DNA of 64,000 nucleotides from assembly GCA_948567375.1 (NCBI GenBank), contig OX419755.1:46766291-46830290 (forward strand), given 5' to 3'. The stretch comes from Lunularia cruciata. Its lineage: Eukaryota > Streptophyta > Marchantiopsida > Lunulariales > Lunulariaceae. The notes under the pieces are model-generated. The model saw only the letters and a program-made list of their open reading frames with translations. It did not search any database and had not been told where the DNA came from. Below, piece by piece: positions 1-34,341 of this stretch (positions are counted from its first letter, which is position 1; each line of letters starts with the position of its first letter). The translations under genes and the position numbers were made by a program.

Positions 1-546
1 TTTTGGAAATATGGATTCAATATGACACAAGAATCACCTAAATTTGGTCTCTTGGTGAAGAGAACTAGCCTTGCAAAGTTGGTTCTCCAAACACCATGAT
101 GCATGAGATGTGACAAAATGAGAATTGTCACCATTGCTTGCTTAGACCTCCATGTGTTGTAAAATTGGCCTTGAAAGAGAGCTTGTAAGTCTGATCTAGC
201 AATTTGCATTGGATTTGCACTAGTGACTGCAAGGCAATACCCCTCTAAATTCTTACACAATCACATAGATTGCTCAAAGCTTCTTCAGAATTCAAAAATC
301 CAGAACTGTTTGTGTATTGCTTCAAAATGCACACGCATTACCTTGAAAGAAAGTTCTAAGCATGGTGCTTCTAGTGAGACCCCAATCACTCCATTTGCTT
401 AGGTATTGGCATAGATACAATCACTTGAAATTGCACTTCAAACCCTAAAATTTGCCAAAGATGACAACATTCAAATCCTTGTAACCTTTTGCATAGATGT
501 GCTCTTTGAGCATGCTTAATATAGAAAATTGAAAGATTTGTTCAAG
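1..546 (-). repeat. LINE 5' UTR fragment
   Basis: This stretch has no convincing gene. It is similar on the same strand to about 57300-57900 and 59820-60430, where the same sequence lies upstream of (minus-strand) LINE ORF1. Shared landmarks are the 'accctaaaatttgccaaagatga' type block near 440-465 and the 'catgcttaatat' block near 510. The similarity stops at about 546, where the LTR sequence of element A begins, so this is the left flank of a truncated insertion. Orientation is inferred from the copies that still carry ORF1. Confidence 0.6.
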
Positions 547-616
547 TACAAAGAGAAGTGGCCACGCAAGAAGAAGTGACCCCGAGCAATGGAGTGGAGT
601 ATCTACGGAAGATCGT

Positions 617-1716
617 GTGCCGATTGTTGGTGAAGTTAGAGCACAAGTAAATGCAGTCGACATGTCCGAAGGTGAAGACTGTATTGCAGGTATTGACCAG
701 ATTAGAAGAAGAAAACTCAGAGTTGAAGAAGAGTATAACCCGAGGTGCGGAGGAAAGGGAAGTGCTGCGAGCGGAGGCAGTGGTGAGAAGTCAGGTAATT
801 GAAGACCTGAAGAGAGAAGTCAGTTATCGAGAGGATCTGGTGAAGAAGAGTGACATAGCAAGGGAGAGACAAGTAGTTGAGTATGAGATCTTGAAGCAGC
901 AGTTTGTTGATTCAAGAGTAGAGGTAATCCATGCTATGGCAAGAGTAGCTGCAAAGGATCAAGAGCTCGATAGGGTGATGGAGAGTGTTGAGGAGAAGAA
1001 GCAACTTTGGCAACGAGAGTTGGCAGCACAATACAGAGAAGAAGACCAATTACGAGAGTTACTTCGTAATCAGGAAGAGAAGGTTGTTCAGAAGGAGAAG
1101 GAGAAGGAGTCGGTGAAAAGCCGAGTTTGAGGCGGAGTTGGCAATGTACCGGGAGGATTGGCTTGCAGATCGTGAACGTGAGAGGAAGACCAGATTGGAG
1201 CCATTGAAGGAGATAGTCCTCCAAATGAACGCAATGTTAAGTACTGAGGCCAACATTCGAATTGAAGAGACGAGGCTGCACGAGTTGAAATTGTTGGTGC
1301 AAGAGACAAGGCAAAGACAAGCAAAGGATACAGATATGAATGCCTTGTTGATTAGTCTCAGAACTCATGTAGACAGGAAGATCTTAGAAGAAGAAGATAA
1401 TATTGCGATTAGATTAGACTTGGTGAAAAAAGAGATAAAAAAGCTTTGGAAAGATGTTAGAGCGAAACCCAAAGTAGATAACATAGCAGTACAAATGTCT
1501 TTGGAGTTACCAGTGGAGACATTAGAGAAGAGTGGGTCAAGAGATGAAGAGTTAGATAGATTACCCACTAGTGGAATTTTAGATCAAGAAAGAGAATTGC
1601 TGGATCCGGTAGAAGAAGTAGAAGATATGAAACCTAAGGAAAAAGTAGTAGGAAGTAAAGTTACTTCGGGTTCGGGTTTGAAAGCCGAGAACGAAGTAGA
1701 CATCGGATCGGATTAG
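617..1716 (+). pseudogene. LTR-encoded ORF, coiled-coil part (5' LTR copy of A)
   Basis: The frame is open from 651 to 1130 and then, shifted by one base, from 1138 to 1716. The two pieces together give about 350 residues rich in Glu, Lys, Arg, Gln and Leu with heptad spacing (for example LEEENSELKKSI, DLKREVSYREDLVKK, EYEILKQQF), so a long coiled coil is likely. The frameshift is a run of four A where the element C copies have three, and it is also present in the 3' LTR of A. The C-terminal part is acidic and ends IGSD. No known family is recognised. The N-terminal half of the ORF is missing here because the LTR is truncated. Confidence 0.7.
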
Positions 1717-1829
1717 TAACAGTTCTGAGATTTGAAGAGGCAGATATGAAGAGGTGCATTGTCATTTTGGATCTGCAGGTTAGAAGAGTTGTTGAACGGT
1801 ATAGTTGTTAGAACTGTCAATTGCTTCAC

Positions 1830-1836
1830 TATTTAA
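1830..1836 (+). promoter_or_regulatory. TATA-like box in 5' LTR of A
   Basis: TATTTAA lies in a block (ttcacTATTTAAgagtgg) that is kept in all four LTR copies (also 11766, 19131 and 36574). It lies about 115 bp after the end of the LTR ORF and about 670 bp before the LTR end. This is the plausible start region of the genomic transcript and places the ORF in U3. Function is inferred from position and conservation. Confidence 0.5.
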
Positions 1837-2513
1837 GAGTGGCATTTGCAGTCTTATGTTGCTCAGTGCTCATAATTTCTGAGAATAGATAAAGCAAAGT
1901 GCTGTGAAGCAGTGCTTGTTGCTTGAGCTTGATTCCGAGTATCAACTTTGTGTCTATGTTTGTGAGTGTTTGGAGAAATTCGAAGTGCAAGTCAGTGTGC
2001 TTATTGGATGTTGGATTCCAGAACCTTGATCTTCATTCGGTGTGTTTGATCTTGAGTGAAGTGCAATGAAAGCAATGCCTTGACAGATCTGAGAGGAATT
2101 GTAGTGTTGGTAGTATTCTGCATTTGTGAGTGCAGTGCGAAGTTGATGTGAAGCAATTTTGATCAAGGAAGTTGTGCCTTCAGTGGAGGGGTGGAACACA
2201 ATTATGAGGCAAAGTCATTTTGTAGTGAAGTGTCGTTTTTGGGAGAGCCTGAATCATCACAATCAAGATTGTTTGGAAAGAATTGAAGGATTTTTGATTA
2301 AGGAGTGTTACTTTGTGACAAGACTGCAAGTCAGTGCTTGTTACTCTCTTCTGGGTGTGGTTTCTACCTAAGAGACTAAAGAAGAACTCAAGAATAATTA
2401 AAATTGTTACTTTGCTTTGTATTTGACCAATTCTGACTCGTATCTTTGCGGGAACAAACTTTACTTACCCAATTACCGCAAAATTGATATTTTCCGGGTT
2501 GTCACATGATTTT

Positions 2514-2530
2514 TGGTGTTGTTGCCGGGG
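2514..2530 (+). promoter_or_regulatory. Primer-binding site (tRNA-Asp type)
   Basis: TGGTGTTGTTGCCGGGG lies seven bases after the LTR end. The element C copy reads TGGCGCCGCTGCCGGGG (minus strand, 35871-35887). Both resemble the complement of the 3' end of plant tRNA-Asp (TGGCGCCGTTGCCGGGG), used as primer by many plant Ty3/gypsy elements. The three differences in A are C-to-T changes, as expected from decay of methylated cytosines. Confidence 0.8.
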
Positions 2531-2708
2531 ATACAATCTTTGGAAGTGGAAGAATACGAAGCCAAATTCAAAACTGGGTATCAACGCAATATGAATGTCT
2601 ACATTGAGAGAACAACGAGAAGAGAGAGCTCAAAAATGAGCACTTCAGCGTGAAGAAGACAAACATCTGAACGTCCCATCCACTGTTGACAAAACTGAAT
2701 GAGAGGCA

Positions 2709-4105
2709 TTGGATTTTCAACTCCTTCACAAAGTGCAAGAAGCCCTGCGAGAACTTGACCACAAGAAACGCAAAGGTGGTTGGCAAGGCTACTTCGCATC
2801 TCCTTCTTCGTCCAAGAAGAAGAAAGAAACAAGTGGGCAAACATATGCATTGCGGCCTAGTACACCAACTTCCCCTAGAGCTGTAAAGGAAGTTGTGTCC
2901 TTGAAGAACTTTGTTCAAGAAAAGACAGCACGAACACTTACTGAAGACGAGTGTCAACATCTTCTACGAACAATTCCTCGGTTGTCCCGAAGGAATTTTG
3001 AAGAACCAATCGAAGGTGTTCATCCTGAATCTTCCACTTGGGTTGAAGTCGACACCCTCATAGCAGAAATTGTCGAAGAAGACCTTACCTTGAATTTGAC
3101 AAATTGGAACCCTTGGGCTGACAACACGGTGTCAATACCAGCCAATCCTTCAAGTTCAGCAGTACCTCAGCCGATCCCAGTGCATCGAACGATGACTTCC
3201 TTGCCTGTCATCCGACACATCTATTAGAAGTACAAGGGGATAGAACAAGACAAAGACCCCGATGAATTTATTGAATAATTTGAAGTTATCTCCTTTGCTA
3301 ACAAGGAGCATGACTCGGCGGATCGACTAAGAATTTTCCCAAGTTTGCTCCAAACAAAAGCTCGAAGCTGGTACACCCATGTGACTTAGAAGGGGTTCGT
3401 ACCAGCAGACTGGGCAGACTTGCGAAACAACTTCATGGAACAATTTCGGGAGGTTGATTACGACACGAGTGTCTTTGCGGCACTCAATGATTTAGACCAA
3501 TGCAAGAAGGAGAAGTTGAGAGACTACTCTGAGCGGTTCATGGCCCTATTGAACCGAGTTCCCAAGCAATCGGGGGTGGTGCGTTACTCCGATGCCCAAG
3601 CCATTACATAGTTCCTTGGAGGACTTTCACCAGAGATACAAATCTTTGCAAGGGAGAGGAATGTAACTTCCTTGGACAAAGTACTCAAACATGTCGCTCG
3701 TTACAAAGCGGCCCACTCTCACTCTGCCGATAACCGGAGAAATCGGGAGAAGAAAGGCAAGAAGCCCAGAAGGAGAGCTTTGCGCAGTACATCCCCTTCT
3801 TTGGACGAATCCTCTACGTCTTCGAGCTCTTCTTTGGAATCCGAAGAAGAATCAAAGCCAAGACAAGTCAAAAGACGTGGAGACAAGAAACCAATAACTC
3901 CTCCAACAAAGAGTGTAAATAAAGCGGATACCAAGCTGGATGCCCTCATCAAGGAGTTTTTGGATTTCAAGATCTAGATAATTGGGGCCAGAGATAAAAG
4001 GAAGGCCCCAGCATTTGGGAGATCGAATGTATGGTTCACCGCATGTGGCAAATCAGGCCATGCCAACACGAAATGCAATACTCGTAATGCATTCCCGGTG
4101 TAGCA
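2709..4105 (+). pseudogene. gag: gag of element A (broken)
   Basis: A single frame runs through 2709-3227, 3420-3611 and 3672-3977, interrupted by stops near 3225, 3279, 3388, 3609 and 3975. It encodes the virus-like particle protein. A capsid-type Retrotrans_gag region is recognisable around 3240-3660 (RIFPSLLQTKARSWY, WADLRNNFMEQF, YSERFMALLNRVPKQSG). A basic and serine-rich stretch follows (3720-3960). A first CCHC zinc knuckle lies at 4036-4077 and keeps C-G-K-S-G-H but has lost its first Cys; the element C copy is intact (CTTCGKSGHANTEC). The N-terminal 170 residues are not recognised. Confidence 0.8.
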
Positions 4106-4281
4106 AATTGATTGTGTTCTAGGATGGAACCAAGATGAGGATGACGAGGTTGTGTACCAACGCAAGAAGTACAGCCTCAAGCGAGCACATTGTATCAAGG
4201 TCCGAGGTTTGGACCAAGGGAGTATAACCCTAATGCTCCTCCACAAAGACCACCGATGTCAACCAAAATTGCCCTTAGAAT

Positions 4282-5523
4282 GTTGCACCCGGAGCTTGTT
4301 ATAATTGTGGCTCGATGGGACATTGGTCCCCAAACTGTCCCGAGCCAAGAAGGCAAATTGGGTATGTTCCCCTGTGAGGAAATTGTAAAGGATCGGGGCA
4401 CGGGCAACCAATGTCCTCACCCAGCAAACCCGAAGCCGCCTGTAAAGTATGTACAGACCCCGTTGAGCGTGCAGCACTTCAGCCAAAGGGGGATACTAAT
4501 GTAAATTGCATCACTCTTGAGGAAGAAAGACCTCAAGAAGGGAGTCTGGCCTCAGAAGGAGAATGGCCGGACCTTGATATTTTGAAAGTTGAGACACGCT
4601 CTAGCAAGAAGAAGCGTGATCCCAAAGAACTGAGTACAACCTCGTCGTCTTCTAGAAAGGCAAAGAGACTGCGCCCAAAGGCAATTCTTTCTACCAAGGA
4701 GGAAAAGATCCTCGCAAAAGCCAAAGCTAAAGCCTTGCAAAAAGAACTAAAGGAGGCATTACTCAGGACTCGGGAACTGAGTTTGGAAGAGGAGACGAAG
4801 ACAAAGTCTCCAGTTTTTCCGGCGGACATCCGATCCAAAGTAAAGGGTCTGATCCAAGCCGAGGTGGGCCAACCCGAGGAACCTTGGGTTAAGGCCATCA
4901 GCAAGCCCGTCACTATTTTGAAGCGTCTCGAAGTCAAGAGGGAACATGGAGAAACTTTGGACCCAAAGCCAAAGGCAAAGACGGTCAAATTGGGAGGAGT
5001 TCCCCAATATGATATTGTAGCAGATTTGGCAGCCACAAATGCCAACGTTACATTCAAGCATTTGTGGGAAGATAATAAGCTATACAAGAGGCAGCTGAAT
5101 TTGGCCCTCAAGAAGGTGAGGTTGATGTCAAAGAAAGACCTGCCTGCTATCTATCGTATTGAGCAAGAAGATTTAGGATCTCCCAAGGTAGACATGGAGA
5201 TTGCAGGGTGCATGATCACATCGATACCCATTGACTTTTGGTCCGGTGTGAATGTCATGACCAAAGATACTGCGAATCAACTCGGGTATCACACGTTTGA
5301 ACCAACCTCCCGAGTGTTGAAGTTTGCAGACCAAACTAGGAGATAGCCTTTGGGCATGCTATCAAACATCACCACGATCATTGAAGGGTACCCTTCAAGT
5401 TGAATTACATCGTGTTGTGACCAGTGACAAAGACTGGTTACCCTCTGTTGATTGGCAGACCTTGGTTGTATAGCGCCCAAGTTGTGGTGGATTGGCATCA
5501 GCAGAAGTTAAGATTCAAGAACA
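4282..5523 (+). pseudogene. gag C-terminus and aspartic protease of element A (broken)
   Basis: A second zinc knuckle, CYNCGSMGHWSPNC (4297-4338), has perfect CX2CX4HX4C spacing. A third, degraded one near 4372-4420 is better seen in element C. A long charged linker rich in Lys, Glu and Ser follows (open 4411-5346). The retropepsin region begins near 5190. Its active-site triplet, D-S-G in element C, is D-F-W here (about 5232), so this protease is inactive. The second half (LIGRPWLYSAQVVVDW, 5445-5493) is in another frame after a TGG-to-TAG stop at 5344 and a shift near 5400-5420. Confidence 0.75.
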
Positions 5524-6838
5524 TTTCATCCAAAGATCAGAAGCTGGTGACTATGAGTTGGATGAAGGTTCCCTATCTCGGGGAAACAAGTTCGTTGGAA
5601 GAGGAGGACGAATCCAAAGACTCATCGTCTTCGTCCTCAGGCAAATCCGAAGATGAAGTCCAAGTTAATTACTTGGAATGCTACGAGGTGGATGTTGAAG
5701 ACGAAGATCCATATGACCTTGCCTTGGGTGAGCCTGACTTGGAGAAAGGGGGTTTGATGGCAGCTCGCCTTGGATTAAGCCAAGTAAGCCACGTTGAAGG
5801 AGTCATCAACCCCAATGACTGTCAAGATGATTTATTAACTAAAGGAAAAATTTTAAAAATTTCAAAGATAGTTACTTCGGATGAGTTGGCAGGATACACT
5901 GCCCTGTTTATAGAATTCCAAGATGTATTTGCCTGGTCAATTGATCAAATGCTGGGTATTCCACAAGAATTTGGAGAACACCGGATTGATTTGATTGAAG
6001 GTGCAGTTCCGGTTTGGCAGCGACAATACCGCCTAAACCCAAAGTACTCTCTGTTGGTGAAAGATGAAATCGACAAGTACTTAGGGGCCGGAATCATCTT
6101 CCCTATCTTAAGCAATGAATGGGTTTCCCCCATTGTCATTGTCCCAAAGAAGAAAACAAGGAAGATCCGAGTGTGCCAAGCTTCCGGAAGTTGAATGCAA
6201 TCACAAGGAAAGATCATCATCCCTTGCCTTTTATCGATACAATTTTAGATCAGGTAGCTGGGCATCCTTGTTATAGTTTTCTCGATGGATTTTCAGGGTA
6301 CAATCAAGTATCCATTCAAGAAGAGGACAAGGATAAAACTACATTCACGACCAATTGGGGCACTTTCGCTCACAATCAAATGCCCTTTGGGTTGTGTAAT
6401 GCTCCCGCTACTTTCCAGCAGATGATGAATTCAATCTTCAAAGATTTCCTGCGCAAATTTGTGGAAGTTTTTATTGATGACTTTTGTGTGTTTGGGCAAA
6501 GAGATGTACATTTAGATTACCTTTGCCAAACGTTTGAAAGGTGTCGTTTTGCCGGCTTGTCATTACACCCGGAGAAATGCTTCTTCGCAATGAAGGAGGG
6601 AATTCTTCTAGGGCATAGGGTGTCAAGCCGAGGTATTGAAGTCAATGTTGAGAAGGTCAAGATAATTGCAGCTTTGGAATCCCCGAAGAACATCCGGGAG
6701 CTGAGAGCCTTCTTGGGACATGTCGGATATTACAGACGCTTCGTGTCAAACTATGCAATGCTTGTTGCACCACTTACAAATCTTCTGAAGAAATCCAAAG
6801 ACTATCTGTGGGAAGCAAATCAAAAAGAAGCTTTCTAG
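5424..6838 (+). pseudogene. pol: Reverse transcriptase of element A (one frameshift)
   Basis: This is the Ty3/gypsy RNA-dependent DNA polymerase. The frame opens at 5424 with a protease-RT linker carrying acidic serine-rich tracts. The RT fold starts near 5985 with the EHRIDL and RLNPKY blocks, then SNEWVSPIVIVPKKK, LPFIDTILDQVAG, FLDGFSGYNQVSI, the catalytic FIDD box (6470-6481) and the thumb (LRAFLGHVGYYRRFVSNY). One base is missing near 6179 compared with element C (CAAGCTTCC against CAAGACTTCC), which moves the frame; the second frame runs 6119-6838. It continues into RNase H after a CAG-to-TAG stop at 6836. Confidence 0.9.
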
Positions 6839-7336
6839 GTGTTGAAGAAGAAGTTGGTTGAAGCACCAGTTATGAGGGCCCCAAATTGGGACATCCCTTT
6901 TCATGTATTTGTGGACACTTTGTCCATGGCCATCGGAGTCGTCTTAAGTCAGAAGGACAAGAAGAAGAAGGACTACCCGGTATATTATGCCAGCCGACAA
7001 CTTTCAGTTTCTGAAAAGAACTATTCAACAACTGAAAGAGAAGCCCTCAGAATGGTGTATGCCTGCAAGAAATTTTGTCATTATTTGTTGGGGTATGAGT
7101 TTTTCTTCTATGTTGACCATTACGCATTGCAACATTTGGTCAAGAAGGCAGATTTATCTGGGCAAATTGCAAGATGGATCTTGTTGTTACAAGAGTTCAC
7201 GTATACTGTAAAAGTGAGGAAGGGAGCTTTGCATTCAAATGCGGACTTCCTGTCCAGGTTAGAAACTCAAGACCAGGAGTGGGAAATTGACGATCAGTTC
7301 CCTGATGAAGAGTTGTATCACTTATCAGCAATGTGA
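6839..7336 (+). pseudogene. pol: RNase H of element A
   Basis: This domain removes the RNA strand of the RNA-DNA hybrid. It is in the same frame as RT. Visible motifs are the first catalytic Asp in FHVFVDTLS (about 6905), PVYYASRQLS, the Glu in TTEREAL, the Asp in FYVDHYALQHL, and the last acidic motif in NADFLSR (about 7240). The domain is open throughout, with a stop at 7334 just beyond it. The spacing and the KKADLSGQIARWILLLQEF block are typical of plant Ty3/gypsy elements. Confidence 0.88.
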
Positions 7337-8650
7337 AGTACAAGGTATGCAGCTGAATATCATTATCTGAATACTCTCCATTGTCCTGAGGGGATGGACC
7401 CGGAACAGCGGGCAGTCTTTCTCAGGAAAATGGGGTCGTACCAGCTTAAACACAACATTTTATTTAAGATGGGCGAAGACAAAGTACTTCGGCGATGCTT
7501 GGAGTCATACGAAGTAGGAGGAGTGATTGAATCTTTACACTCTAAAGCATCGAGAGGACACTATGCTCTGAAGAATACTGTAAAGAAGATTCTTTTGGCA
7601 GGGTATTGGTGGCCTACAATGTACAAAGACGTGCATGCTCATATCCAAAGCTGTGATACTTGTCAGAGAATGGGGAAGCCGACGGCTACTTCTCAATGGC
7701 CTTTGAGACCAATTTTGCCTTTGGCCCCATTTGAGAAATAGGGGATTGATTGTGTGGGTCCCATTCAACCAGTGACCCGAGTCACAAGAAAGCGATACAT
7801 TTTGGTTTGCACTGACTATGCTACCAAGATGGTCGAAGCTGAAGCAACTCGCAGAGATGATGCTGAAACTGTGGTGGAATTCTTCTTCCAAAACATCATC
7901 TCCCAATATGGGTGTCCTTTGGAATTTGTTAGTGACCAAGGAACACATTTTTTGAACTCTGTAATGGAAGCATTAACCAAGTACTTTCAGATTAAACATC
8001 GGAAGACGACTCCTTATAACCCAAAAGCAAATGGCTTAACGGAAAAAGCGATTGGGTTACTTTGTAAAATTTTGAATAAGGTGACTGTCAATTATGCCTA
8101 TGATTGGGATACAAAATTACCAGCCGTGTTGTGGGCATATCGAACGACAGAAAAGATTACAACCAAACAAACTCCATACTTCTTGACATATGGCTTGCAT
8201 CCCATACTACCGATTGAATTTGAAGTACCGACATATCGGGTTCTTTGCAAAGAACAAATGTCGGAAGAGGAAAGTCAGGATCTTCAGATTCATCAACTGA
8301 TGTGGTTAGAAGAGAAATGAGACGATGCAATGCAAACCACGAAAGAAGTACAAGCACAAAGGAAAGTCAGGCACGATAAGAGAATCAAGCCTATAGTTGT
8401 ACGTGAAGGGGATTTGGTTTTGTTATATGATAATCGCCGAATACTTTTTCCAGGCAAGTTGCATTTATGATAGATGGGTCCCTATTGAGTTCTTCATCTT
8501 TACAAAAATGGGTCCATGCAGCTTGTAGACTTGGAAGGTAATCCTTTTGCCACTCGAGTAAATGGGTGGAGAGTTTGGAGATATTCGACCATAGACTCAA
8601 AAGTTTCTAAGACACCCGAGGTCTATGTTTGCGGGGACGCTCACATTTGA
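7337..8650 (+). pseudogene. pol: Integrase of element A
   Basis: This domain inserts the cDNA. It stays in the RT frame with point stops at 7334, 7739 (Trp to TAG in PFEKWGID), 8318, 8468 and 8486. The N-terminal zinc-binding domain has the GHYALKN and CDTCQRMG blocks. The DDE core shows the first Asp in VCTDYATK (7813), the second in FVSDQGTHF and the Glu in NGLTEKA. The C-terminal domain has GDLVLLYDN, WMGPY and NPFATRVNG. There is no chromodomain. The terminal TGA (8648-8650) overlaps the first bases of the polypurine tract, so the internal region ends ten bases before the LTR. Confidence 0.88.
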
Positions 8651-8660
8651 GGGAGGGGTA
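8649..8660 (+). promoter_or_regulatory. Polypurine tract of element A
   Basis: GAGGGAGGGGTA directly precedes the TG that opens the 3' LTR. A purine run here primes plus-strand cDNA synthesis, so it fixes the true LTR boundary at 8661, well before the LTR ORF. In element C the corresponding site has been deleted. Confidence 0.85.
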
Positions 8661-9020
8661 TGTGGTGCCCACATTGTTTTGTTTTTTTTCAAAATAAAAG
8701 AGAAGAAGTGTATAGAGAAGTCGGATTGCGCCTGTATGGCCGAAGAAGGCGAAGAAAAGACTCTTCAGGATGAAACCCAAAGTAAAGTGACTTTGGGTCA
8801 TAAGGCAAAGTACTCGGAAATGCCCTGTCAACATACAACCTGAAGTAAATTGTCTTCATATCAGGGGAGCTCAACCCGAGGCGAAGACAGTCTAACAACC
8901 TTTTGTTGGGGTGAGAAATTCAAGAAGGGACCGTTCAAAAACCGGCGGTCCATACGCACGAAGGTTGATTGACAGTGACAGGTGCATGAAGGAGGTGTGA
9001 TTTCTCGGTAGAAACTCAAA

Positions 9021-11649
9021 GTGATGAAAGACAAAGAAGCGCAACTCTATAAAAATCAAACTTGCAATGACAAAATGTCGAGTAATTTTCTTTTGCCATT
9101 GAGAAGTCGTCTTGTAGGTGATTGTGGGAAGAGAAATAGAGTTGGAATCGCGTTAGTGCGTAAGGGAGAAGTTGCAAGATTGAAATCAAGAGATAGTGAG
9201 AAGGCAAAAGAGATGGGAGAAGGAAAGAAGAACTCTGAATTCACAGTGAGAAATCATGCAATTCGGAGGTTAGATGTAATAGCAAGGATCAAAGTCTTGA
9301 GCCAACTTTGGATCACGTTTCTGGCATTGAACTGGAATGTGAGCTTTCCAGGTTTCATGATAGAAATCATCGAGAGCAAGTGTCTCGATGGACCCAAGGA
9401 AGAAGGGAAGAGAGGAAATCCGGCTCGCTGGACTGAGTCGGATTGGAGACTCGTACTCGGGAAGGAAGTAGGCTTGGAGCACGGGGTAACATTCTTGGGA
9501 AAGGGAGAGATAGCTCAATAGACCCAAGAGGTGAGAGATGCCTTCTCATCAAAGCGGACAAAGAATGGGTACAAGGTTGAGAGCTACAAAGACCCTGTGA
9601 AGAGAGGGATCATGAGTGCATTGATGGCTATCCTGAAGCCGGAGAGAACCACTTATGTGATGAAACACCAAGCCGTGTTCTTTCACAAGCTTTTTGCAGG
9701 AGAACCAATCAATTGAGCGAGGTGTTTTCACTGGAGAACGAGGCAAATGGAGTGGAATTTGCGGGATAAGTCACCTCTACACTACATCGTGCCGTTTGCA
9801 ACACACTTCTACCTCGGGCTCAATTTGCTGAACTTGGCGGAGTGGATTCGGATGGTGTCGCACTTCCATCCTGATTTGCAAAAGGAAGTCGACGTCAAGG
9901 AGCAGCAATACATCTTGCAGATTAGGAGCACCGACGACTTCTACACAAAGATAGGGAAGAATGTGGAGGTCGTAGTGAGTACCCCAACTACAAAGAAGAG
10001 GAGTCGGCAAGGTGACGCCAAAGACATGAAGAAACCTCGGAAGACATGGAGAGGCAACCCGAGGCGAGGTATGGTGGTAATCAAGTCGGAGGACAAAGAC
10101 TCAGAAGGAGATGCCGAGCTCAAGATTGAAGACTCGGAACACGAGGAGGAGCCTAAGCTAACGGTGCAGAGTGGAGATACAAGTAGCGATAGGGATGAAG
10201 GGGGAGAAATGACATCGGTGCTAGCGGTTGAAGAATACAAAGAAGAAGTGCAAGCAGAGATGGAAGCCAAAGACAATACACAGTTGGAAGATGAAGTAAC
10301 TGTGCCTGAAGAGAAGAAGATCATAGTGCAGCAAGGAGTTTGCTCGAGACATAAGGTGAAGTGTGAAGCGGAGCCAAGTAAGGCAAAAGAAGGGGTAAGT
10401 GAAAGCTCGGGAAGTGAGGCTTCGATTCCGATACAAAGACTGTAGAGAAGAAGGCGAGTATTGGATGAACACAAAGTATGAAGAGAAGTGGCCACGCAAG
10501 AAGAAGTGACCCCGAGCGATGGAGTGGAGTATCTACGGGAGATTGTGTGCCCATTGTTGGTGAAGTTGGAGCACAAGAAGAAGGAAATGCAGTTGACATG
10601 TCCGGAGGTGAAGACTGTATTGCAGGTATTGACCAGATTAGAAGAAGAAAACTTGGAATTGAAGAAGAGTATAACCCGAGGTGCAGAGGAAAGGGAAGTG
10701 CTGCGAGCGGAGGCAGTGGGGAGAAGTTAGGTAATTGAAGACCTGAAGAGAGAAGTCAGTTATCAAGAGGATCTGGTGAAGAAGAGTGACATAGCAAGGG
10801 AGAGACAAGTAGCTGAGTATGAGATCTTGAAGCAGCAGTTTGCTGATTCAAGAGTAGAGGTAATCCATGCTATGGCAAGAGTAGCTGCAAAGGATCAAGA
10901 GCTTGATAGGGTGATGGAGAGTGTCAAGGAGAAGAAGCAACTCTGGCAACAAGAGTTGGCGGCATGATACAGAGAAGAAGACCAATTACGAGAGTTACTT
11001 TGTAATCAGAAGAAGGTTGTTCAGAAGGAGAAGGAGAAGGAGTCGGTGAAAAGCCAAGTTTGAGGCGGAGTTGGCAATGTACCGGGAGGATTGGCTCGCA
11101 GATCGTGAACATGAGAGGAAGACCAGATTGGAGCCATTGAAGGAGATAGTCCTCCAAATGAATGCAATGTTAAGTACAGAGGCTAGCATTCAGATTGAGG
11201 AGACGAGGCTGCACGAGTTGAAGTTGTTGGTGCAGGAGATAAGGCAAAGGCAAGTGAAGGATACAGATATGAATGCCTTGTTGATTAGTCTCAGAACTCA
11301 TGTAGACAGGAAGATCTTAGAGGTAGAAGATAATATTGCGATTAGATTAGACTTGGTGAAAATAGAGATAGAAAAGCTTCGGAAATATGTTAGAGCAAAA
11401 CCCAAAGTAGATAACATAGGAGTACAAATGTCTTCGGAGTTACTAGTGGAGACATTAGAGAAGAGTGGGTCAAGAGATGAAGAGTTAGATAGATTACCCA
11501 CTAGTGGAATTTCAGATCAAGAAAGAGAATTGCTGGATCTGGTAGAAGAAGTAGAAGATATGAAACCCGAGGAAAAAGTAGTAGGAAGTAAAGTTACTTC
11601 GGGTTTGGGTTTGAAAGCCAAGGACGAAGTAGACATTGGATCGGATTAG
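9021..11649 (+). pseudogene. LTR-encoded additional ORF (aORF), most complete copy on + strand
   Basis: One frame runs 9021-10967 with isolated stops (9519, 9714, 10443, 10728, 10965), then shifts by one at about 11050 and runs 11071-11649. About 870 codons in all. An upstream piece (8736-8843) may or may not belong. The N-terminal part (residues about 70-290) looks globular, with blocks RRLDVIARIKVL, LNWNVSFPGFM, MSALMAILKPERTTYVMKHQ and VPFATHFYLGLNLLN. A basic then acidic low-complexity middle (10000-10440) follows, then a coiled coil of about 350 residues. It is in sense after integrase, inside U3. No family is recognised; a remote relation to the plant-transposon or plant-mobile domains often found in plant gypsy elements is only a guess. 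Confidence 0.75.
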
Positions 11650-11765
11650 TAACAGTTTTGAGATTTGAAGAGGCAGATATGAAGAGGTGCATTGTCATTT
11701 CGGATTTGCTAGTTAGAAGAGTTGTTGTTGAACGGTATAGTTGTTAGAACTGTCAATTGCTTCAC

Positions 11766-11772
11766 TATTTAA
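11766..11772 (+). promoter_or_regulatory. TATA-like box in 3' LTR of A
   Basis: TATTTAA lies about 115 bp past the aORF stop and 675 bp from the LTR end, in the same context as in the other three LTRs. It marks the probable U3/R region. Confidence 0.5.
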
Positions 11773-13316
11773 GAGTGGCATTTGCAGCCTTATGTTGTTC
11801 AGTGCTCATAATTTTTGAGAATAGATAATGCAAAGTATTGTGAAGTAGTGCTTGTCGCTTGAGCTTGATTTCGAGTATCAACTTCATGTCTATGTTTGTG
11901 AGTGTTTGGAGAAATTTGAAGTGCAAGTCAGTGTGCTTATTGGATGTTGAATTCCACAGCCTTGATCTTCATTCGGTGTGTTTGATCCTAAGTGAAGTGC
12001 AATCGAAGCAATGCCCTGACAGATCTGCGAAGAATTGTAGTGTTGGTAGTATTCTGCATTTGTGAGTGCAAAGTGCAAAGTTGATATGAAGCAATTTAGA
12101 TTGAGGAAGTTGTGCCTTCAGTGGAGGGGTGGAACAAAATTCTGAGGCGAAGTCGTTTTGTAGTGAAGTGTCATTTTTTGGGAGAGCCTGAATCATCACA
12201 ATCAAGATTGTTTGGAAAGAATTGAAGGATTTGTGATTAAGGAGTGTTACTTTGTGACAAGACTGCGAGTCAATGCTTGTTACTTGCTTTTGGGTGTGGT
12301 TTCTACCTGAGAGACTAAAGAAGAACTCAAGAAGAACTGAAATTGTTACTTTGCTTTGTACTTTGACCAATTCTGACTTGTATCTTTGCAGGAATGAACT
12401 TTACTTACCCAATTACCGCAAAAGTGATATTTGCCGGGTTGTCACAATAGTCCCAATTTCCTTTCTTGATGACCTTCTATGTTCCCAAGATGAATCTAAA
12501 CACTCAAACATGTTTTTTGTGGCTCTCAAACTCCTCATGCATGAGATCTCCACTTTGCAGAATTGACCCTTCCTCACAATGTCACTCAAATTTCCTAACC
12601 AGTATGTCACAATCCTCTGAAATTTTTCACACTTAATAACAACTCTAGGGTGTCTCCTCCTACAAAATTTTAGATCTTGTCATTTAGCCATTTGGCCAAA
12701 CACCTTTCTATTCAACAGACATATTTCAGATTTGGTCTGAAAACCACCCCTTCACTTCAAAAACTCATTTCTCCCTACTCAAGAATAATCTTTCTCTAAT
12801 TTTTGTGTCAAAAGGTAGGATATAACAAACTTAATTATCTTGAGAAGTTTCATATCAATTCACTAAAAATTGAAGAAATGGCAGACTCTGTACAATTTTC
12901 CCGAGAGCATGCAGTTGTAGGAGCAGTTTACCCTATCAACTTTCAAAAATTCTAGCCCAATGCTCATAATAGCTCTCACAATAATTCTAAGTGTGATAAC
13001 TAGAGGACAACCCAAGCTGTGATGTCTAGAAATTTCAAGTTAAAATCTCAAACTTGAGATTTTGCCCAAAATCACCTTAATCCCCAAAATATGCAATCCA
13101 CCTCACATAATCTCTCCAAATCCTCTCATGTGTACAAGATGTACAAAATCACTTTAAAGACATCATAATGAACTATACGGTATAAAAATGGATCTTGGTT
13201 CTCTAACATAACTTCAGCCCTCTCCTCTCTTAATGTTCTCTCCAAGTGAGCTCTCATAGCCTCCTTCTGCCTAATGTAAAATTGAACGCGGAACATTATC
13301 TTGTCTTCTAGAGAGA

Positions 13317-16190: not shown

Positions 16191-18467
16191 GTCAGCTACT
16201 GCATAGCAATTCAAGACCCTTAGAGTGTTGTTTTGGAATGTTCATGGTCTCACACATACCAAGTACTCCAGTGCTAAGCCTTTGTGGGATGATGCTGATT
16301 TGATCAATCTTGAGGAGACATGGGAACATTAAGGAAATACCATTCAACATATTGAAGGATTCACTCTTGTTGGTTTAACTTGGTTCAAGGGGAGCCAACA
16401 CAAAGGAAGGGACTTTGGAGGTATTGCTACTTATGTCAGATTTGGCTTTGAGAAACCAATCTCCTTGATAGGTCAAGATTCAACTGGACAATTCCAATGG
16501 CTGAGGATTGGAAGAGTTGCCACACCTTGCTTCCTTGTTGTTTATTACTTTGTCCCGTTGACATCACAAATCTATTCAAGTGGAGTTCTCAACACCATGC
16601 AGCCTTTCCACTCCTTGACAAAGGATGTCTTGGAGTTTCAAAGTAAAGGTGCAATACTTGTTCTTGGTGATTTCAATGCTAGGATCCAAGCCTCTCAGAT
16701 CCCTGAGTTGAGTGACCTTGAGAATGATCCTTTCCATAGCTTGATAGACCATTGTAGTGCTTGGTCCCGCTCTTCCAAAGATCTTATGTCCAACCCCATG
16801 AGTGAGCACTTTTTGAGCTTTGGTACAAATTGTAGCCTAAAGATCTTGAATGGCCTTTTTAAATTTCCAGAAACTTGTAAAAGCACATGCTTTGCCTTAG
16901 GTGGATTAAGCACCATAGATTATATGCTCACTTCAGCTAATGATATCCACCTTGTCTCAGATTTTGCTGTTTTAGATCCTCAACCAGAATCGGACCATGC
17001 ACCTCTATCTTGTACCATCCTTCTTCCTTGCCTCAATAGAACCACATAACCTATTAACCATGCCTTTAGAGAAAAAAATTGTCTAGATTTTCACAAGAGG
17101 GATTTGAACCAACAAGCTATCCAAGAGAATTGAGTTCTAAGGAGTAGAGTTTTGATTTTCAACAATGTAGTGATCAGTTGGTTGAACTTCTCCAGTCTAC
17201 ATCAACTACTTTGCTTCCAAGAGGTTCTTACAGGAAGAGACTTGGTCTCCCTTGCAATATATGGTATGATGTTGATTGCAAAATGGCAAGGATCAAGGCT
17301 TTGGATAGGTCTCTTGATCAGATTGCACAAAATCAGGCCTTTGTTTTGTATAGAAAGTTGGTGAAGTGCAAAAAGCGGGCATTTTTTAGACTCAAGGGGG
17401 TTGAGTTGAGCACTAAACTGAAGAGCAATCCCAAGGCTTTCTAGAAGAAGGTTACCATCAGATCCCCATCTCCATTGCTAGACCTGAATGAGCTTTGTGA
17501 CTATGCAAAAGATTTGTACTTTTTACCTGATGCTTAAAGCATAGCACCTTGCCTTGGATCTGCTCTCACTATCTCTAAAGCTAATGTCAAGTTACCAACT
17601 GAAGAAGTTGGCCAATGGTAAGGCTGAAGACCTTGATGGACTATGTGTTGAGCTTTTGAAGTGGGGCGGTAGCCATCTGATTTCAGTACTCACTTCTCAT
17701 TTGAATGAGGCAATCAAGTGTGACTTTCCTGATAGATGGTGCTTCAAGAAGGTAGTTCATATTCACAAGTCTTGCCAGAGAGATGGAATCACCAATTACC
17801 ATACTAGTTGGCAGAATCTTTGCCAAGTTGTATAGTCAAATTTTGGAGTCTAGGTTGAGTACTTGGGCTGAAAAGTACAGAGTTTGAGCTAAGTGCCAAG
17901 CTGGTTTCAGATCAGGCTTTAGTACTTTGGATCACCTATTGGTACTCCATGTTTTGTGGTGGAAATCTAAGGGTATTGGGAGAGCTCTCTATGTTATATT
18001 TATTGATTTCAGGAAAGCCTTTGATAAGGTGCTTAGGAAATCTCTAAGTGAGAGACTCATTGAAGTTGGTGTTTCAGCTGATCTGATTAATGCTATCTCT
18101 AGACTCTATGAGAAAGTGGTTGTGAGACTTTCATCTTTGACCCTAAACTGTTGGATTTTCTTGTTTGCTTTTGCAATCAAACAAAGATGGAGGTGACCCT
18201 TGACAAGTCCAAGGTGACTGTGGTGAGTTCTAAAGGTGTCACACCTTTCTTTTTTGATGGACAGCAATTGGAGCAGGGTTCTTCCAATAAGTCTTGGGCC
18301 TTGAGTTTTCTCATGACTATAGTTGGTCTTCTTGTGTGAAGATGAGAATCAATGTAGGGTTAAGAGCTTTGTAATCACTCATAAATTGCTTGAGACTTGC
18401 TCATCTTATCACATGGGAGTTGAAGAAGGTGTTGTTCAGATCTCTTGTGCAGCTAGTGGTTCTTTAT
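16191..18467 (+). mobile_element. LINE copy 3, 5' part: ORF1 end, endonuclease, RT start
   Basis: It opens with the last codons of ORF1, the conserved TAG at 16202-16204, and ORF2. The AP-like endonuclease spans 16216-17048: Asn in LFWNVHG, Glu in LEETWEH, GDFNAR (about 16669) and SDHAPLS (about 16990). The EN-RT linker follows (17170-17440). RT runs from 17560 with FIDFRKAFDKVL, but the part from GVIQGC to YADD is deleted (about 18145). The copy is split at 18467 by element C and resumes at 39681. Several stops and frameshifts are present. Confidence 0.88.
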
Positions 18468-19130
18468 TGTGACAACCCGGCAAATATCACTTTTGCGGTA
18501 ATCAGGTAAGTAAAGTTTGTTCCCGCGGAGATACAAGGCAGAAATGTCCAAATACAAAGTCAAAAAGTAACAATGTAGTTCTTCTTGAGTTCTTCTTTAG
18601 TCTCTCAGGTAGAAACCACACCCAAAAGAGAGTAACAAGCACTGATTTGTCACGAATTCACACTCCTTAATCACAACTCCATCAAATCTTTCCAAACAAT
18701 CTTGATTGTGATGATTTAGGCTCTCCAAAAAATGGCACTTCACTGCAAAACGACTTTGCCTCAGAATTGTGTTCCACCCCTCCACTGAAGGCACAACTTC
18801 CTTGATTGAAATTGCTTCACATCAACTTCGTGCTGCACTCACAATGTAGAATACTACCAACACTTCAATTCCTCTCAGATTTGTCAAGGCATTGCTTTGA
18901 TTGCACTTCACTCAGGATCAAACACACAGAGTGAAGACCAAGGCTGCGGAATCCAACATCCAACAAGCACATTGACTTGCATTTTGAATTTCTCCACACA
19001 CTCACAAACACAAACACAAAGTTGATACTCGAAATCAAGCTCAAGGGACGAGCACTGCTTCATAGCACTTTGCTTTATCTTTTCTCAGAAATTATGAGCA
19101 CTGAACAAAAATTTAGTGCAAATGCCACTC

Positions 19131-19137
19131 TTAAATA
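19131..19137 (-). promoter_or_regulatory. TATA-like box in 3' LTR of C
   Basis: TATTTAA on the minus strand in the same context as in the other three LTRs. Confidence 0.45.
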
Positions 19138-19385
19138 GTGAAGCTAACGATAGTTCTAACAAAAATACCATTTCCTAACAACTCTTCAAACCTACAGATC
19201 CAAAACGACAATGCACCTCTTCATATCTGCCTCTTCAAATCTTAATTTTGTTACTAATCCGATCCGATGTCTACTTCTCCTCGGCTTTCAAACCCAAACC
19301 CAAAGTAACTTCACTCACTACTACTCTATCCTTGGGTTTCACAACTCCTAATTCCTCTACTAAATCTAACAGTTCTCTTTCCTGA

Positions 19386-21041
19386 TCAATTTTTTTCACT
19401 AGTGGGTAATCTATGTAGCTCCTTATCTTCTGACCCACTCTTCTCTAATACCTCCAATGGTAATTCCAAAGACATCTGCACTCCTACTTCATCTACTTTG
19501 GGTTTTGCTCTCACATCCTTCCAAAGTTTATCTATCTCTAATTTGACTAAGTCTAATCTAATTGTGATATTGTCTTCTACTTCCAATATCTTCCTATCTA
19601 CACAAGTTCTTAGACTGATCAACAAAGCATTCAAGTCTTTGTCCTTTGCATTTCTCCTTCTCATCTCCTCCACCAACAACTCCAACTCGTGTTCCCTCGT
19701 CTCTTTGATGCGCATATTGGCCTCTGTACTAAGCATCACATTCATCTTGATCATGACCTCTTTTTATGGCTCCAATCTCATTTTCCTCTCTGGTTCTTGA
19801 TCTACAAGCCAATCTCCTCCGTACATTGCCAATTTTGCTTTGAACTTGGCTTTCACAGCTTCCTTCTCCTTCTCTTTCTACACAATATTTTCCTCCTAAT
19901 TGCAAAGTAACTCTCTCAACCTTTCTTCTTCTCTATACCGCACTATCAACTCTTGTTGCCACAACTGCTTCTTCTCCTCTACACTCTCCATCACCCTATC
20001 AAGCTCTTGTTCTTTCTTTGCTACTCTTGCCATAATATGGATAATTTCTAGTCTTGAATCATCAAACTACGGCTTCAAGATTTCATATTCAGCAATTTGT
20101 CTTTCCTTTTCTATAACACTCTGCGCTATCAGCTCCTCTCAATTCCTTGCTTCTCTCCTCAAATTTTCAATCTTTTGATTCTGCACTACTGCATCTACTC
20201 GTAGTACTTCCCTTTCCTCCTCACCTTGAATTATACTCTTCTTCAATTCCAACTTCTCTTCTTCTAATTGTGCTAACACCTGCAACACAATCTTCACCTC
20301 TAGATACTTTGACTACATCTCCTTCTTCTTGTGCTCTAACTTCACTAATAAGGGGCACACAATCTCCCACAGGTACTCCACTCCTTCACTCAGAGTTACC
20401 TCAACTTGCGGAGTGATCTCCTTCACCTCTTCTTCGCTCGACACTCGCCTTTTGAGCCGCAGTCGCCATATGGGAATGGATGCTTCACTCCCCAAACTTG
20501 CATTCTCCTCTTCTCTTACCTTATTGGGCCTCGCTTCACACTTTGCCTTTTTGCTAGAACAAACTCCTCATTGAATGGTAACTTTCCTTTCTTCTTGCTT
20601 TGGCACTTTGTCTTCCAACTTTGAGTTACCTTTCTCCTCCATCTCCATTGTGGCTTTTTCTTCCTTGGGTGCCAATCTCATCTCCCCTCCATCGTCGCTG
20701 TCACTACTTGTGTCTCCACTTTGTAGTGTGAGCTCAGGTTCTTCATCTCTTTCCAAGTCTGCGGACTTGCACTCGGCTTTGCCCTTTGATTCTTCCTCTG
20801 ACGATGTGTTTACCACCATACCTTTCCTTGGGTTTACTCTAGTCTTCTGAGGTCTGACTTTCTTGACATCTTCTCCTTCTCCTTGTTGACTCTTCTTCTT
20901 TGAGTTTGGAGTACTCACGTCCAACTGCACACTCTTCCCTATCTGCGTGTAGTACTCATCGTTGCTCCTGATCTGAAGAATGTATTGTTGTTCCTCTATG
21001 TCAACATCCTTTCTTATGTCGGGATGGAAATGAGACACCAT
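19386..21041 (-). pseudogene. aORF remnant in 3' LTR of C
   Basis: Read from right to left: the basic/acidic middle (open 21041-20568), a serine/glutamate-rich part (20495-20313) and the coiled coil with stops (20300-19386, last open piece 19754-19386 ending near the PTS block). The protein pieces match the copies at 9021-11649 and 36826-39252. The triple-A spelling near 19850 keeps the frame that is lost in element A. Function unknown. Confidence 0.7.
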
Positions 21042-21076
21042 CCTATTTCACTCTGCCGCATTGAGCAAGTTCAGCC

Positions 21077-21685
21077 CTAGATAGAAATGAGCTGCAAATG
21101 GCACAATGTAATGCGGAGGTGATTTATCCCACAAATTCCACACCATCTGTCTTGTTTGCCGATGAAATCACTTTGCCCAGTCACTCCTACAAACATCTTA
21201 TGGAAGAACACCGCTTGGTGCTTCATCACATAAGTCATTCTCTCCGGCTTCAAGATTGCCATTAGAGCACTCACAATCCCTTGCTTGACAGGATCCTTAT
21301 AACTCTCTACTTTGTATCCATTCTTCATGCACTTCAAAGAGAAAGCATCTCTCACCTCATAGACTTTGGGTGTCTTAGAGACTTCCAAATCTATGGTCCA
21401 ATATCTCCAAACTCTCCACCCATTTACTTGAGTGGCAAAAGGATTTCCTTCTAGGTTTGCAAGTTGAATGGATCTATTTTCATAAAGATGAAGAACTTGA
21501 TAAGGCCCCATCCATCTCAAATGCAACTTGCCTGGGAAAAATATTCGGCAATTGTTGTATAACAAAACCAAATCTCCTTTGTGCACAGCCACAGGCTTGA
21601 TATGCTTATCCTGCCTGACTTTCCTCTGCTCTTGTACTTCTTTTGTGGTTTGCATTGCATCATCTCTTTTCTCTTCTAACCACAT
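21077..21685 (-). pseudogene. Integrase C-terminus fused in frame to aORF by deletion
   Basis: An open frame of 202 codons. Its first half is the integrase C-terminal domain (HKGDLVLLYNN, FPGKLHLRWMGPYQVLHLY). At about 21358 it passes without a break into the aORF globular domain (YEVRDAFSLKCMKNGYKVES, MSALMAILKPER type block). In elements A and C 5' LTR these parts are separated by the polypurine tract and 0.87 kb of LTR. The joint is a simple deletion that happened to keep the frame. The end after about 21180 is frame-shifted. Confidence 0.8.
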
Positions 21686-21689
21686 TAGT

Positions 21690-22620
21690 TGTTGGATCCA
21701 AAGATCCTAGCTTTCTTCTTCCAACAATTGTTCTTCGCAAAGAATCCAATATATCGGTACAACTGGTAGTATGGGATGCAAGCTATATGTCAAGAAGTAT
21801 GGAGTTTTTCTGGTGTAATCTTTTCTGTTGTTTTATATGCCTACAACGTGGCTGGTAATTTCATATCCCAATCGTAGGCATAATTGATAGTCACCTTCTT
21901 TGAAATTTTGCAAAGTAACCCATTCGCCTTTTCCATTAAGCCATTTGCTTTTGGGTTATAAGGAGTTGTTTTTTGATGTTTAATCTAGAAGTACTTGGTT
22001 AACATCTCCATCACAGAGTTCAAAAAATGTGTCCCTCTGTCACTGACCAATTCTAGAGGACACCCATATTGGGAGATGATGTTTTGAAAGAAAAATTCCG
22101 CCACCATTTCAGCAACATCTCTACAAGTTGCTTTAGCTTTGACCATCTTGGTAGCATAGTCAGTGCAAACCAAAATGTATCTCTTCCTTGTGACTCGGGT
22201 CACTTGTTGAATGGGACCCACAAAATCAATTCCCCATTTCTCAAATGGTGCCAATGGCAAAATTGGTCTCAAAGGCCATTGAGAAGTAGCCGTCGGCTTC
22301 CCATTCTCTGACAAGCATCACAGCTTTGGATATGAGCATGCGTGTCTTTGTACATTGAAGGCCACCAATACTCCGAGGAAAGAATCTTCTTTATAGTATT
22401 GTTCAGAGCAAAGTGTCCTCTTGATGCTTTGGAGTGTAAAGACTTGATTACGCCTCCAACTTTGTATGATTCCAAGCATCGTCGAAGTACTTTGTCTTTG
22501 CACATCTTGAATAAAATGTTTTGTTTTAGCTGACACGACCTTATTTTCCTGAGAAAGACTGCTCTCTGCTCCGGGTCCAACCCTTCTGGACAATGGAGAG
22601 TATGCAGATAATGATATTTG
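21690..22620 (-). pseudogene. pol: Integrase core of element C
   Basis: The zinc-binding domain (GHFALNN, CDACQRMG; about 22460-22310) is followed in another frame by the DDE core (22314-21985): first Asp in VCTDYATK, second in LVSDRGTHF, and Glu in the NGLMEKA block near 21930. Stops follow at about 21984 and further left. PFEKWGIDFVGPI is intact here where element A has a stop. A frameshift near 22290 separates the two parts. Confidence 0.85.
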
Positions 22621-23150
22621 GCTGCATACCTCGTACTTCGCATTGCTGTTAATTGATATAATTCTTCATCATGGAACCAATCGTCAATTTCCCACTCTTG
22701 GTCTTGAGTTTCTAACGTGGATAGGAAGTCCACGTCTGAATGCAAAGCTCCCTTCCTTACTTGTACAATATATGTGAATTCTTGTAACAACAAGATCCAT
22801 CTTGCAATGTGCCCGGATGAATCTGCCTTTTTGACCAAATGTTGCAATGCATAATGGTCAACATAGAAGACAAACTCGTATCCCAGCAAGTAGTGGAGAA
22901 TATTTCTTGCAGGCACACACCATTCTGAGTGCTTCTCTTTCATTTGTGGAATAGTTCTTTTCAGAAACAGAAAGTTATCGGCTGGCATAATACACCGGGT
23001 AGTCCTTCTTCTTCTTGTCCTTTTGACTTAAGGCAACTCCAATGGCCATGGATGAAGTGTCCACATATACATGAAAAGGGATGTCCTAATTTGGGGCCCT
23101 CAAAACTGGTGTTTCCACTAATTTCTTCTTCAACACCTGGAAAGCTTCTT
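22621..23150 (-). pseudogene. pol: RNase H of element C
   Basis: This is the same domain as 6839-7336 of element A. The first part (VYVDTSSMAIG and the PVYYA block, about 23090-22990) and the second (22988-22660, YVDHYALQHL, LLQEFTYIVQV) are in different frames. The last acidic motif is altered (DVDFLSTL for NADFLSRL). Confidence 0.8.
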
Positions 23151-24453: not shown

Positions 24454-24768
24454 AATGTCCTTGAACCATAGCTTTTGCTAGTGCCAATCCACCACAACTT
24501 GGGCACTGTACAACCAGGGTCTTCCGATCAACAGAGGGTAACCAGTCTTGGTCACTGGTCGCAACACAATGTAGTTCAACTTGAAGGGCACCCCTCCAAT
24601 GATTGTGGTAAAGTTTGACAGCATGCCCAAGAGCCATCTCTTGGTTTGGTCTGCAAATTTCAAGACTTGAGGTGTTGGCTCAAACGTATGATACCCCAAT
24701 TGATTTGCAGTATCTTTGGTCATGACATTCACACCAAAACCCGAATCAGTAGGTATCGATGTGTGATC
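24446..24768 (-). pseudogene. Aspartic protease of element C
   Basis: The retropepsin active site D-S-G (24739-24747) is intact in this copy, followed by VNVMTKDTANQLGYHTF and LIGRPWLYSAQVVVDWH. The frame is open 24732-24478. Just upstream (right of 24768) a second-family LTR has inserted, separating it from gag. Confidence 0.8.
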
Positions 24769-27301: not shown

Positions 27302-27305
27302 GTAC

Positions 27306-27998: not shown

Positions 27999-28012
27999 TT
28001 TACCCCCGGACT
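27999..28012 (-). promoter_or_regulatory. Polypurine tract of element B
   Basis: AGTCCGGGGGTAAA on the minus strand lies directly before the TGTAACACCC that opens the 3' LTR. It is the expected plus-strand primer. Confidence 0.75.
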
Positions 28013-28029
28013 AAGTTTTCACTTCGTCC

Positions 28030-29140: not shown

Positions 29141-29144
29141 CTCT

Positions 29145-31137: not shown

Positions 31138-31206
31138 GACTTAGAAAGTCATGAGATTTTGAACTCCCATAACTGAAACTACCACTTTATCCATCACCCC
31201 TACTGG

Positions 31207-34320: not shown

Positions 34321-34337
34321 TCCCGGCAACGGAACGA
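34321..34337 (-). promoter_or_regulatory. Primer-binding site of element B
   Basis: On the minus strand TCGTTCCGTTGCCGGGA lies four bases inside the 5' LTR. It equals the decayed site at 13317-13333. Its 3' part resembles the tRNA-Asp type site, but the first eight bases differ; the primer tRNA is not identified. Confidence 0.65.
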
Positions 34338-34341
34338 AAAA

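Follow-up and report, generated by a model that had tools for sequence, protein, structure and literature searches.

We analysed a 64,000-nucleotide stretch of the Lunularia cruciata genome (contig OX419755.1; G000:C1:46766291-46830290 in an assembly totalling 565.8 Mb on 74 contigs, on which the genome searches were also run), hereafter the window. It contains two related Ty3/gypsy retrotransposons, element A on the plus strand and element C on the minus strand, and both carry a sense coding frame of 803 codons inside their long terminal repeats (LTRs). The complete 3′ LTR of element A occupies 8661..12446 (plus strand) and the complete 5′ LTR of element C occupies 35895..39680 (minus strand); each is 3,786 bp long, as the original prediction had stated. 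The frame, which we call the LTR open reading frame (ORF), extends over 9213..11649 on the plus strand in element A and over 36697..39108 on the minus strand in element C (803 codons plus stop). The LTR ends 797 bp past the ORF, in agreement with the predicted 0.8 kb. In both LTRs, the ORF very probably lies in U3 (the unique 3′ region), between the polypurine tract (PPT) and the repeat region R. This is the layout of sag in mouse mammary tumour virus (MMTV), and the comparison with sag drawn in the prediction fits in this respect.

Element A begins with a 5′ LTR remnant at 544..2506 (plus strand), which comprises the distal 1,963 bp and holds the C-terminal part of the ORF up to about 1713. 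A decayed primer-binding site (PBS), TGGTGTTGTTGCCGGGGA, follows at 2514..2531 (plus strand), and we take it to match tRNA-Asp. The internal region (2507..8660, plus strand) encodes gag, with a Retrotrans_gag match at 3390-3608, reverse transcriptase (RT), RNase H and the zinc and core domains of integrase. The stop codon of its pol frame is a TGA overlapping the PPT, GAGGGAGGGG, at 8649..8658 (plus strand), directly 5′ of the 3′ LTR. Element C is enclosed by a target-site duplication (TSD) of TTTAT, with the left copy at 18463..18467 and the right copy at 39681..39685. Its 3′ LTR (18468..21358, minus strand) is truncated by loss of the first 887 bp, a loss that also took the PPT and the final 34 bp of the internal region. 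The internal region (21358..35894, minus strand) is broken into three pieces (35021-35894, 25459-27305 and 21358-24763) by insertions of other LTR elements. The PBS, TGGCGCCGCTGCCGGGGA, lies at 35870..35887 (minus strand) and presumably corresponds to the 3′ end of tRNA-Asp, which it resembles. The bounding features named in the prediction were therefore all found, namely the PPT directly before 8661 in element A and the PBS and TTTAT duplication in element C. The claim that the LTRs open with TG held for element A but not for element C, which opens with TATGG. We also observed an open frame 5′ of the gag match in both elements (2703-3224 in A and 35045-35413 in C), with a proportion of nonsynonymous differences (pN) of 0.154 versus a proportion of synonymous differences (pS) of 0.283 between A and C. 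The piece at 2703-3224 gave no Pfam match.

Two complete LTRs in one element were seen in neither A nor C, which leaves room for the explanation that the LTR was mis-delimited and that the ORF is internal. We searched the LTR of element A against the whole genome and obtained 43 matches from the best 34 of 14,320 candidates scored, of which 29 cover the full LTR or nearly so (a few bases short). The 20 copies ranking next after the match of A to itself were fetched. Ten of them are solo LTRs of 3.78 kb with identical 5-bp duplications directly on both flanks. The PBS follows five copies when read by eye (a strict motif script recovered only one), the PPT precedes one, and four (L009, L010, L014 and L021) have no clear flank class. 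Seven more stretches were fetched, five of them 3′ of the five 5′ LTRs. Three of these five showed a PPT together with the partner 3′ LTR, in each case internally deleted, and the TSDs of these LTR pairs are ACAAT (contig C8), CCAAG (contig C12) and GAATA/TAATA (contig C6; four of five bases agree). In the other two, no paired 3′ LTR was found (L031 contains only a reversed LTR fragment and L032 has no LTR match). An element on contig C7, fetched as its two ends without the internal region, has LTRs of 3,787 and 3,784 bp, a PBS, a PPT and GATTC on either side, and its LTRs differ at 92 of 3,784 sites. This element, with two full LTRs and a TSD, refutes a mis-delimited LTR, and the two TSD-flanked pairs on contigs C8 and C12, whose 3′ LTRs are internally deleted, and the ten solo LTRs also argue against it. 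We therefore give that explanation practically no credence. The LTR limits of 3.78 kb are correct, and the further genomic copies with target duplications that had been envisaged do exist, as solo LTRs and as pairs.

We looked for members of the family in which the ORF precedes the PPT, and found the PPT 5′ of the ORF in all seven readable PPT/LTR junctions (A, L028, L029, L030, the A-type and the T-type LTR of L033, and L036; the junction of element C itself is deleted). As for an LTR made up of the distal 0.8 kb only, the 20 fetched copies are all full-length, but they were chosen by whole-LTR similarity, which is biased against short LTRs without the ORF. The T-type LTRs represent a third subfamily (L029:5598-9462, minus strand, and L033:54-3250), whose main part shares about 72-74% identity with A and C. 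Their ORF layout is that of A and C, and a PPT directly precedes the L033 copy. Identity to the ORF is only 47-49% in another piece, L029:5082-5562. The copy counts below refer to a set of 22, composed of the 20 fetched copies, A and C, all of A or C type.

The ORF was compared codon by codon between A and C. The results showed that 19.3, 15.5 and 39.9% of first, second and third codon positions differ over 800 codons, and that the third-position excess is absent from the noncoding parts of the LTR. The coding pattern begins only past the ATG and not upstream of it. The ratio of nonsynonymous to synonymous substitution rates (dN/dS, NG86) was 0.17 (bootstrap 0.136-0.209) in a run that started 71 codons 5′ of the ATG, and the shifted frames gave 0.89 and 1.11. 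Within the 803-codon frame (795 codons compared), dS was 1.16 and dN was 0.17, so that both estimates together place dN/dS at about 0.15-0.17. The T subfamily also shows the third-position excess. The two LTRs of one element offer a natural test here, since they decay neutrally while comparison between copies reveals selection. In same-element LTR pairs (five elements pooled), the three codon positions differ at 7.8, 7.4 and 7.8%. The two LTRs were identical at insertion and now differ evenly, which indicates neutral decay after insertion and selection before it. As judged from these comparisons, purifying selection acted on the ORF during transposition of the family.

The conserved entity could also be the DNA or RNA of U3, with the frame as a by-product. 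Strongly conserved blocks do occur outside the ORF, such as the 29 bases at 8791-8819, 5′ of the first TATA-like box described below, which are identical between A and C and form the longest such run outside R-U5; this block may be a promoter element. Against this explanation stand the third-position excess, the dN/dS of about 0.17 in this frame only and the terminal stop common to all compared copies, and we regard it as very improbable.

The synonymous divergence between A and C differs by region. In the same elements, dS was 1.16 in the ORF and 0.29 in pol, a roughly 4-fold difference. In pol it ranged from 0.19 to 0.38 in seven 100-codon blocks and reached 0.53 in a final block of 24, and in the ORF it fell to 0.35 in the final 95 codons. 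Restricting the comparison to codons whose first two bases agree makes this step less pronounced. A mosaic origin, in which subfamilies exchanged parts of U3, would possibly explain the high dS of the ORF.

The original prediction had described a sense ORF of 800-870 codons. The 803-codon frame exists and bears the marks of selection, but no open ORF of 800-870 codons is present in the window, where the longest open piece of the frame is 264 codons. The copy of element A has six stops and one uncompensated frame-changing indel, and the complete copy of element C has eight in-frame stops. Chance is nonetheless a poor explanation of the frame, for in element C the other two sense frames contain 93 and 45 stops and the antisense frames 36, 15 and 29. 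The four window LTR copies have 24 internal stops, none of them in common, and the terminal TAG TAA is present in each copy. The ATG and the terminal TAG are kept in all 22 A- and C-type copies, the ATG is present in both T copies, and the same stop is found in the one T copy that reaches the site. Across six elements with 50 stops, a single position is common to both LTRs of one element. Because almost no stop is common to the two LTRs of an element, the frame was largely open at insertion. All 21 other copies differ from the element C 5′ copy (C5) by one compensating indel pair, which marks C5 as the odd one out; beyond this pair, an uncompensated frame change occurs in 8 of the 21 and is absent from the other 13. 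We also searched the genome with the N-terminal 226 residues of the product. The 150 matches listed, the best of 22,259 candidates, all have at least 81% identity, and open frames of at least 878 amino acids were reported for five of them, indicating that intact-looking copies exist. On the evidence of its codon pattern and its copies, we regard the 803-codon frame as a real gene despite the broken copies in the window.

Two TATA-like boxes flank the ORF. The first (TATA1) lies in the block ACTCTATAAAAAT at 9044..9056 (plus strand) in element A, with its TATAAA 165 bp 5′ of the ATG, and at 39289..39301 (minus strand) in element C, 189 bp 5′ of the ATG. The second (TATA2, TATTTAA) lies in the block TTGCTTCACTATTTAAGAGTGGCATT at 11757..11782 (plus strand) in element A, about 117 bp 3′ of the ORF stop, within 26 bases identical between A and C. 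No other TATAAA, TATTTAA or TATATA was found on the sense strand of either complete window LTR. The TATAAA of TATA1 is present in 22 of 22 copies (as TATAAAAA in 19), and the TATTTAA of TATA2 in 18 of 22. In the T subfamily, TATA1 occurs in both copies and TATA2 in the one copy that reaches it. A diverged fragment of U3 and the ORF start, relic D (62880..63560, plus strand), about 71% identical to A, carries TATAAAA at 63142. The distance from TATAAA to the first conserved codons is 246 bp in relic D, 245 bp in C and 221 bp in A, and the spacing in relic D was equalled in 9 of 3000 dinucleotide shuffles. Positions 11675-11700 (AGATATGAAGAGGTGCATTGTCATTT) are identical in A and C; they may be an old PPT/LTR start, and promoter sequence is equally possible.

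TATA2 appears to be the core promoter of the genomic RNA, and the start of R was placed from it. The position of the two boxes strongly suggests that the ORF belongs to a U3 of about 3.1 kb, with the genomic promoter behind it. The prediction that the 5′ copy of the gene sits upstream of the genomic promoter holds for TATA2, but a second conserved TATA box precedes the ORF. TATA1 may, with moderate confidence, be taken as the promoter of the ORF, which would make a complete transcription unit of every LTR, also of solo LTRs.

Alternatively, only the 3′ LTR may express the ORF, which would then be the final frame of the genomic RNA and be reached by splicing or re-initiation; TATA1 would be incidental and the 5′ and solo copies silent. 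MMTV sag and nef of human immunodeficiency virus (HIV) are models for such expression from the 3′ LTR only. By topology, with the PPT before it and R after it, the 3′ U3 copy does lie within the genomic RNA. This explanation is opposed by the TATAAA of TATA1, which is kept in all 22 copies, both T copies and relic D even though few noncoding stretches of the LTR are as diverged as the surrounding U3, and we consider it rather unlikely.

The predicted product has 803 residues. Its N-terminal part is conserved (dN 0.07 around codons 101-200), residues 251-300 have a basic and residues 301-350 an acidic net charge, and the C-terminal half is charged. Structure prediction of a C-terminal 189-residue piece gave a single helix of about 148 residues (residues 2-149; mean predicted local distance difference test score, pLDDT, 80.9). 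Hydropathy revealed no strong membrane segment (maximum 1.15 over 19 residues). Within the length and word limits of the protein searches, no relative was found at E ≤ 0.001 among the 7,996 candidates sharing most words in 5.8 billion proteins, none at E ≤ 1 in a second search with 863 candidates scored, and none in viral_contigs, genome_contigs (bacteria and archaea) or PDB. Against Pfam, the ORF had no match at E ≤ 1, and nine separate pieces gave sub-threshold matches only. Considering its composition and the precedent of Grande gene23, we tentatively propose a nuclear, self-associating accessory factor acting in trans, a role that we hold with clearly less than even confidence.

An ordinary 3′ additional ORF, in an env-like position, might also have been captured in the LTR by a shift of the PPT, its product being an env-like or particle protein. 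Its strand and its place after integrase are those of the sense additional ORFs described in the available part of PMC7264820, and the pol frame reaches the PPT with no spare sequence. Set against an env-like role are the absence of a membrane-spanning stretch by hydropathy, the long predicted helix and the lack of an Athila or other Pfam match above threshold. We judge this explanation unlikely as a whole, and its account of the origin is compatible with the explanation that we favour.

We consider it likely that this is a high-copy Ty3/gypsy element in which the LTR layout, a selected ORF and its own transcription unit occur together. Support is good for the layout and for the selected gene, and expression from an own promoter is plausible from the conserved box. 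Because it lies 3′ of the PPT, the gene enters both LTRs with every round of reverse transcription. TATA2 would transcribe the genomic RNA, with the 3′ ORF copy as its last frame. TATA1 would transcribe the ORF into an RNA that ends at the 3′ end of the genomic RNA, inside the LTR, and the 5′ copy and solo LTRs would be expressed independently from TATA1. The accessory protein might act in trans on the expression or replication of the element, perhaps most likely by opposing silencing or by regulating U3. The layout could have originated by a shift of the PPT to a position upstream of an ordinary 3′ additional ORF.

Several observations weigh against this explanation. All 22 copies are interrupted, by 1 to 11 stops apiece, and 31 of 67 stop positions are found in at least two of the 22 copies. 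C5 has eight stops, compared with 3.8 expected under neutral decay. One frame-changing indel is common to both LTRs of element A, and one stop is common to both LTRs of the contig C12 element, so that in at least two elements the frame may already have been broken at insertion. TATA2 is altered in 4 of the 22 copies and in the 5′ LTR of the contig C7 element; the TATA-like boxes are short, which leaves their promoter role at plausible; the structure of the N-terminal 253 residues was poorly predicted (mean pLDDT 37); and the suggested nuclear role rests on composition. If elements inserted with a broken frame, either the protein was not needed in cis or the errors arose in the last reverse transcription. 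As for the repeated stops, among the 21 copies other than C5 the pairs that share stops were no closer than the mean (10.07% vs 10.20%), and a C-to-T change was involved in 84 of 115 stops. We therefore read the recurring stops as recurrent C-to-T change, which these figures favour, and common descent of some of them is possible.

LTRs are usually seen as noncoding control regions and are used as neutral clocks. With a large selected gene inside it, a plant LTR would be an unusual home for an accessory gene, and solo LTRs would become potential genes. In the strongest form of the proposal, each LTR is an autonomous protein gene with promoter, 803-codon frame and 3′ end, and formation of a solo LTR leaves a whole accessory gene behind; this is possible, and we would not rely on it. 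If true, trans-acting genes scattered through the genome would form a large reservoir that serves the family, for example by opposing silencing, and that is partly uncoupled from gag-pol. Additional ORFs located past the PPT may also escape surveys restricted to internal regions.

Other repeats share the window. The stretches 14114-18471 and 39681-62854 contain many truncated, inverted and nested copies of an apparent non-LTR element resembling a long interspersed nuclear element (LINE). An Exo_endo_phos match was obtained in two of four scanned pieces (one above and one below the cut-off), and a piece near 62800 reads like what we take to be a LINE reverse transcriptase. A second gypsy element with LTRs of about 690 bp lies at 27308-35018 (minus strand), with its solo LTR at 24769-25458, both inside element C, and the flanks of these two insertions suggest, by eye, 4-bp duplications of GTAC and GATC. 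A truncated copy of this element follows element A at 12525-14029.

Elements A and C have the Ty3/gypsy order of gag, RT, RNase H and integrase between LTRs with a PBS, a PPT and a short TSD. Among the 120 RT matches listed, the best one with a named source is from Marchantia polymorpha (59% identity). The PBS is presumably not of the tRNA-Met type, as we take to be the case in non-chromovirus gypsy lineages. No protease match to Pfam was found in A or C. A chromodomain was not found in the pieces scanned, of which the one read for such a domain after integrase was 21359-21706 of element C; it gave only a weak SH3_Tf2-1 match. A second RNase H, the additional RNase H (aRH) that is a feature of Tat elements (Ogre, Retand and TatI-III), was not found in the open pieces scanned, and the Athila ORF-1 domain (PF03078) had no match in the scanned pieces. 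An env-like ORF before the PPT, an Athila trait, is absent, since the pol frame runs into the PPT.

These features were compared with known lineages. In non-chromoviruses, LTRs reach about 5 kb and extra ORFs occur, and ORFs within LTRs are unmentioned in the available part of PMC6317226. The elements described here resemble the Athila/Tat superclade, Phygy and Selgy in that no chromodomain was found, and very large LTRs occur among non-chromoviruses, as far as the available text extends (PMC6317226). In Phygy and Selgy, moreover, the polyprotein occupies the whole internal region, as it does here. The difference is that an LTR-encoded ORF is unmentioned for these lineages in the text available, and that no additional RNase H was found here in the pieces tested. 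In plants, additional ORFs are internal and mostly follow pol, ahead of the 3′ LTR, and Grande gene23 has its own promoter and a nuclear product (both from the available part of PMC7264820). Athila, Bagy2, SIRE, Grande, RIRE2, Retand and Ogre are likewise gypsy or copia elements with an extra family-specific protein, often without relatives, but their extra ORFs are internal, whereas the present ORF lies in U3, past the PPT. Nothing on coding LTRs in plants appeared in the available parts of PMC11963269, PMC2633040, PMC3762812, PMC3601003 and PMC5408686. Among the titles and abstract openings listed, none described a plant family whose LTR encloses an ORF, subscription papers being mostly outside the literature searched, and a described case is possible.

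The closest parallel in layout comes from MMTV, whose 3′ LTR carries the Sag ORF and also encodes Rem, according to the available part of PMC3840357. Likeness of the LTR ORF to Sag was not detected in general library searches, with no direct comparison with Sag made. Sag is a type 2 transmembrane glycoprotein, whereas the product of the LTR ORF has no membrane segment by hydropathy, and MMTV is an animal retrovirus with env, whereas the present element is a plant element with a frame of 803 codons. What the two systems share is a sense-strand accessory ORF within the LTR.

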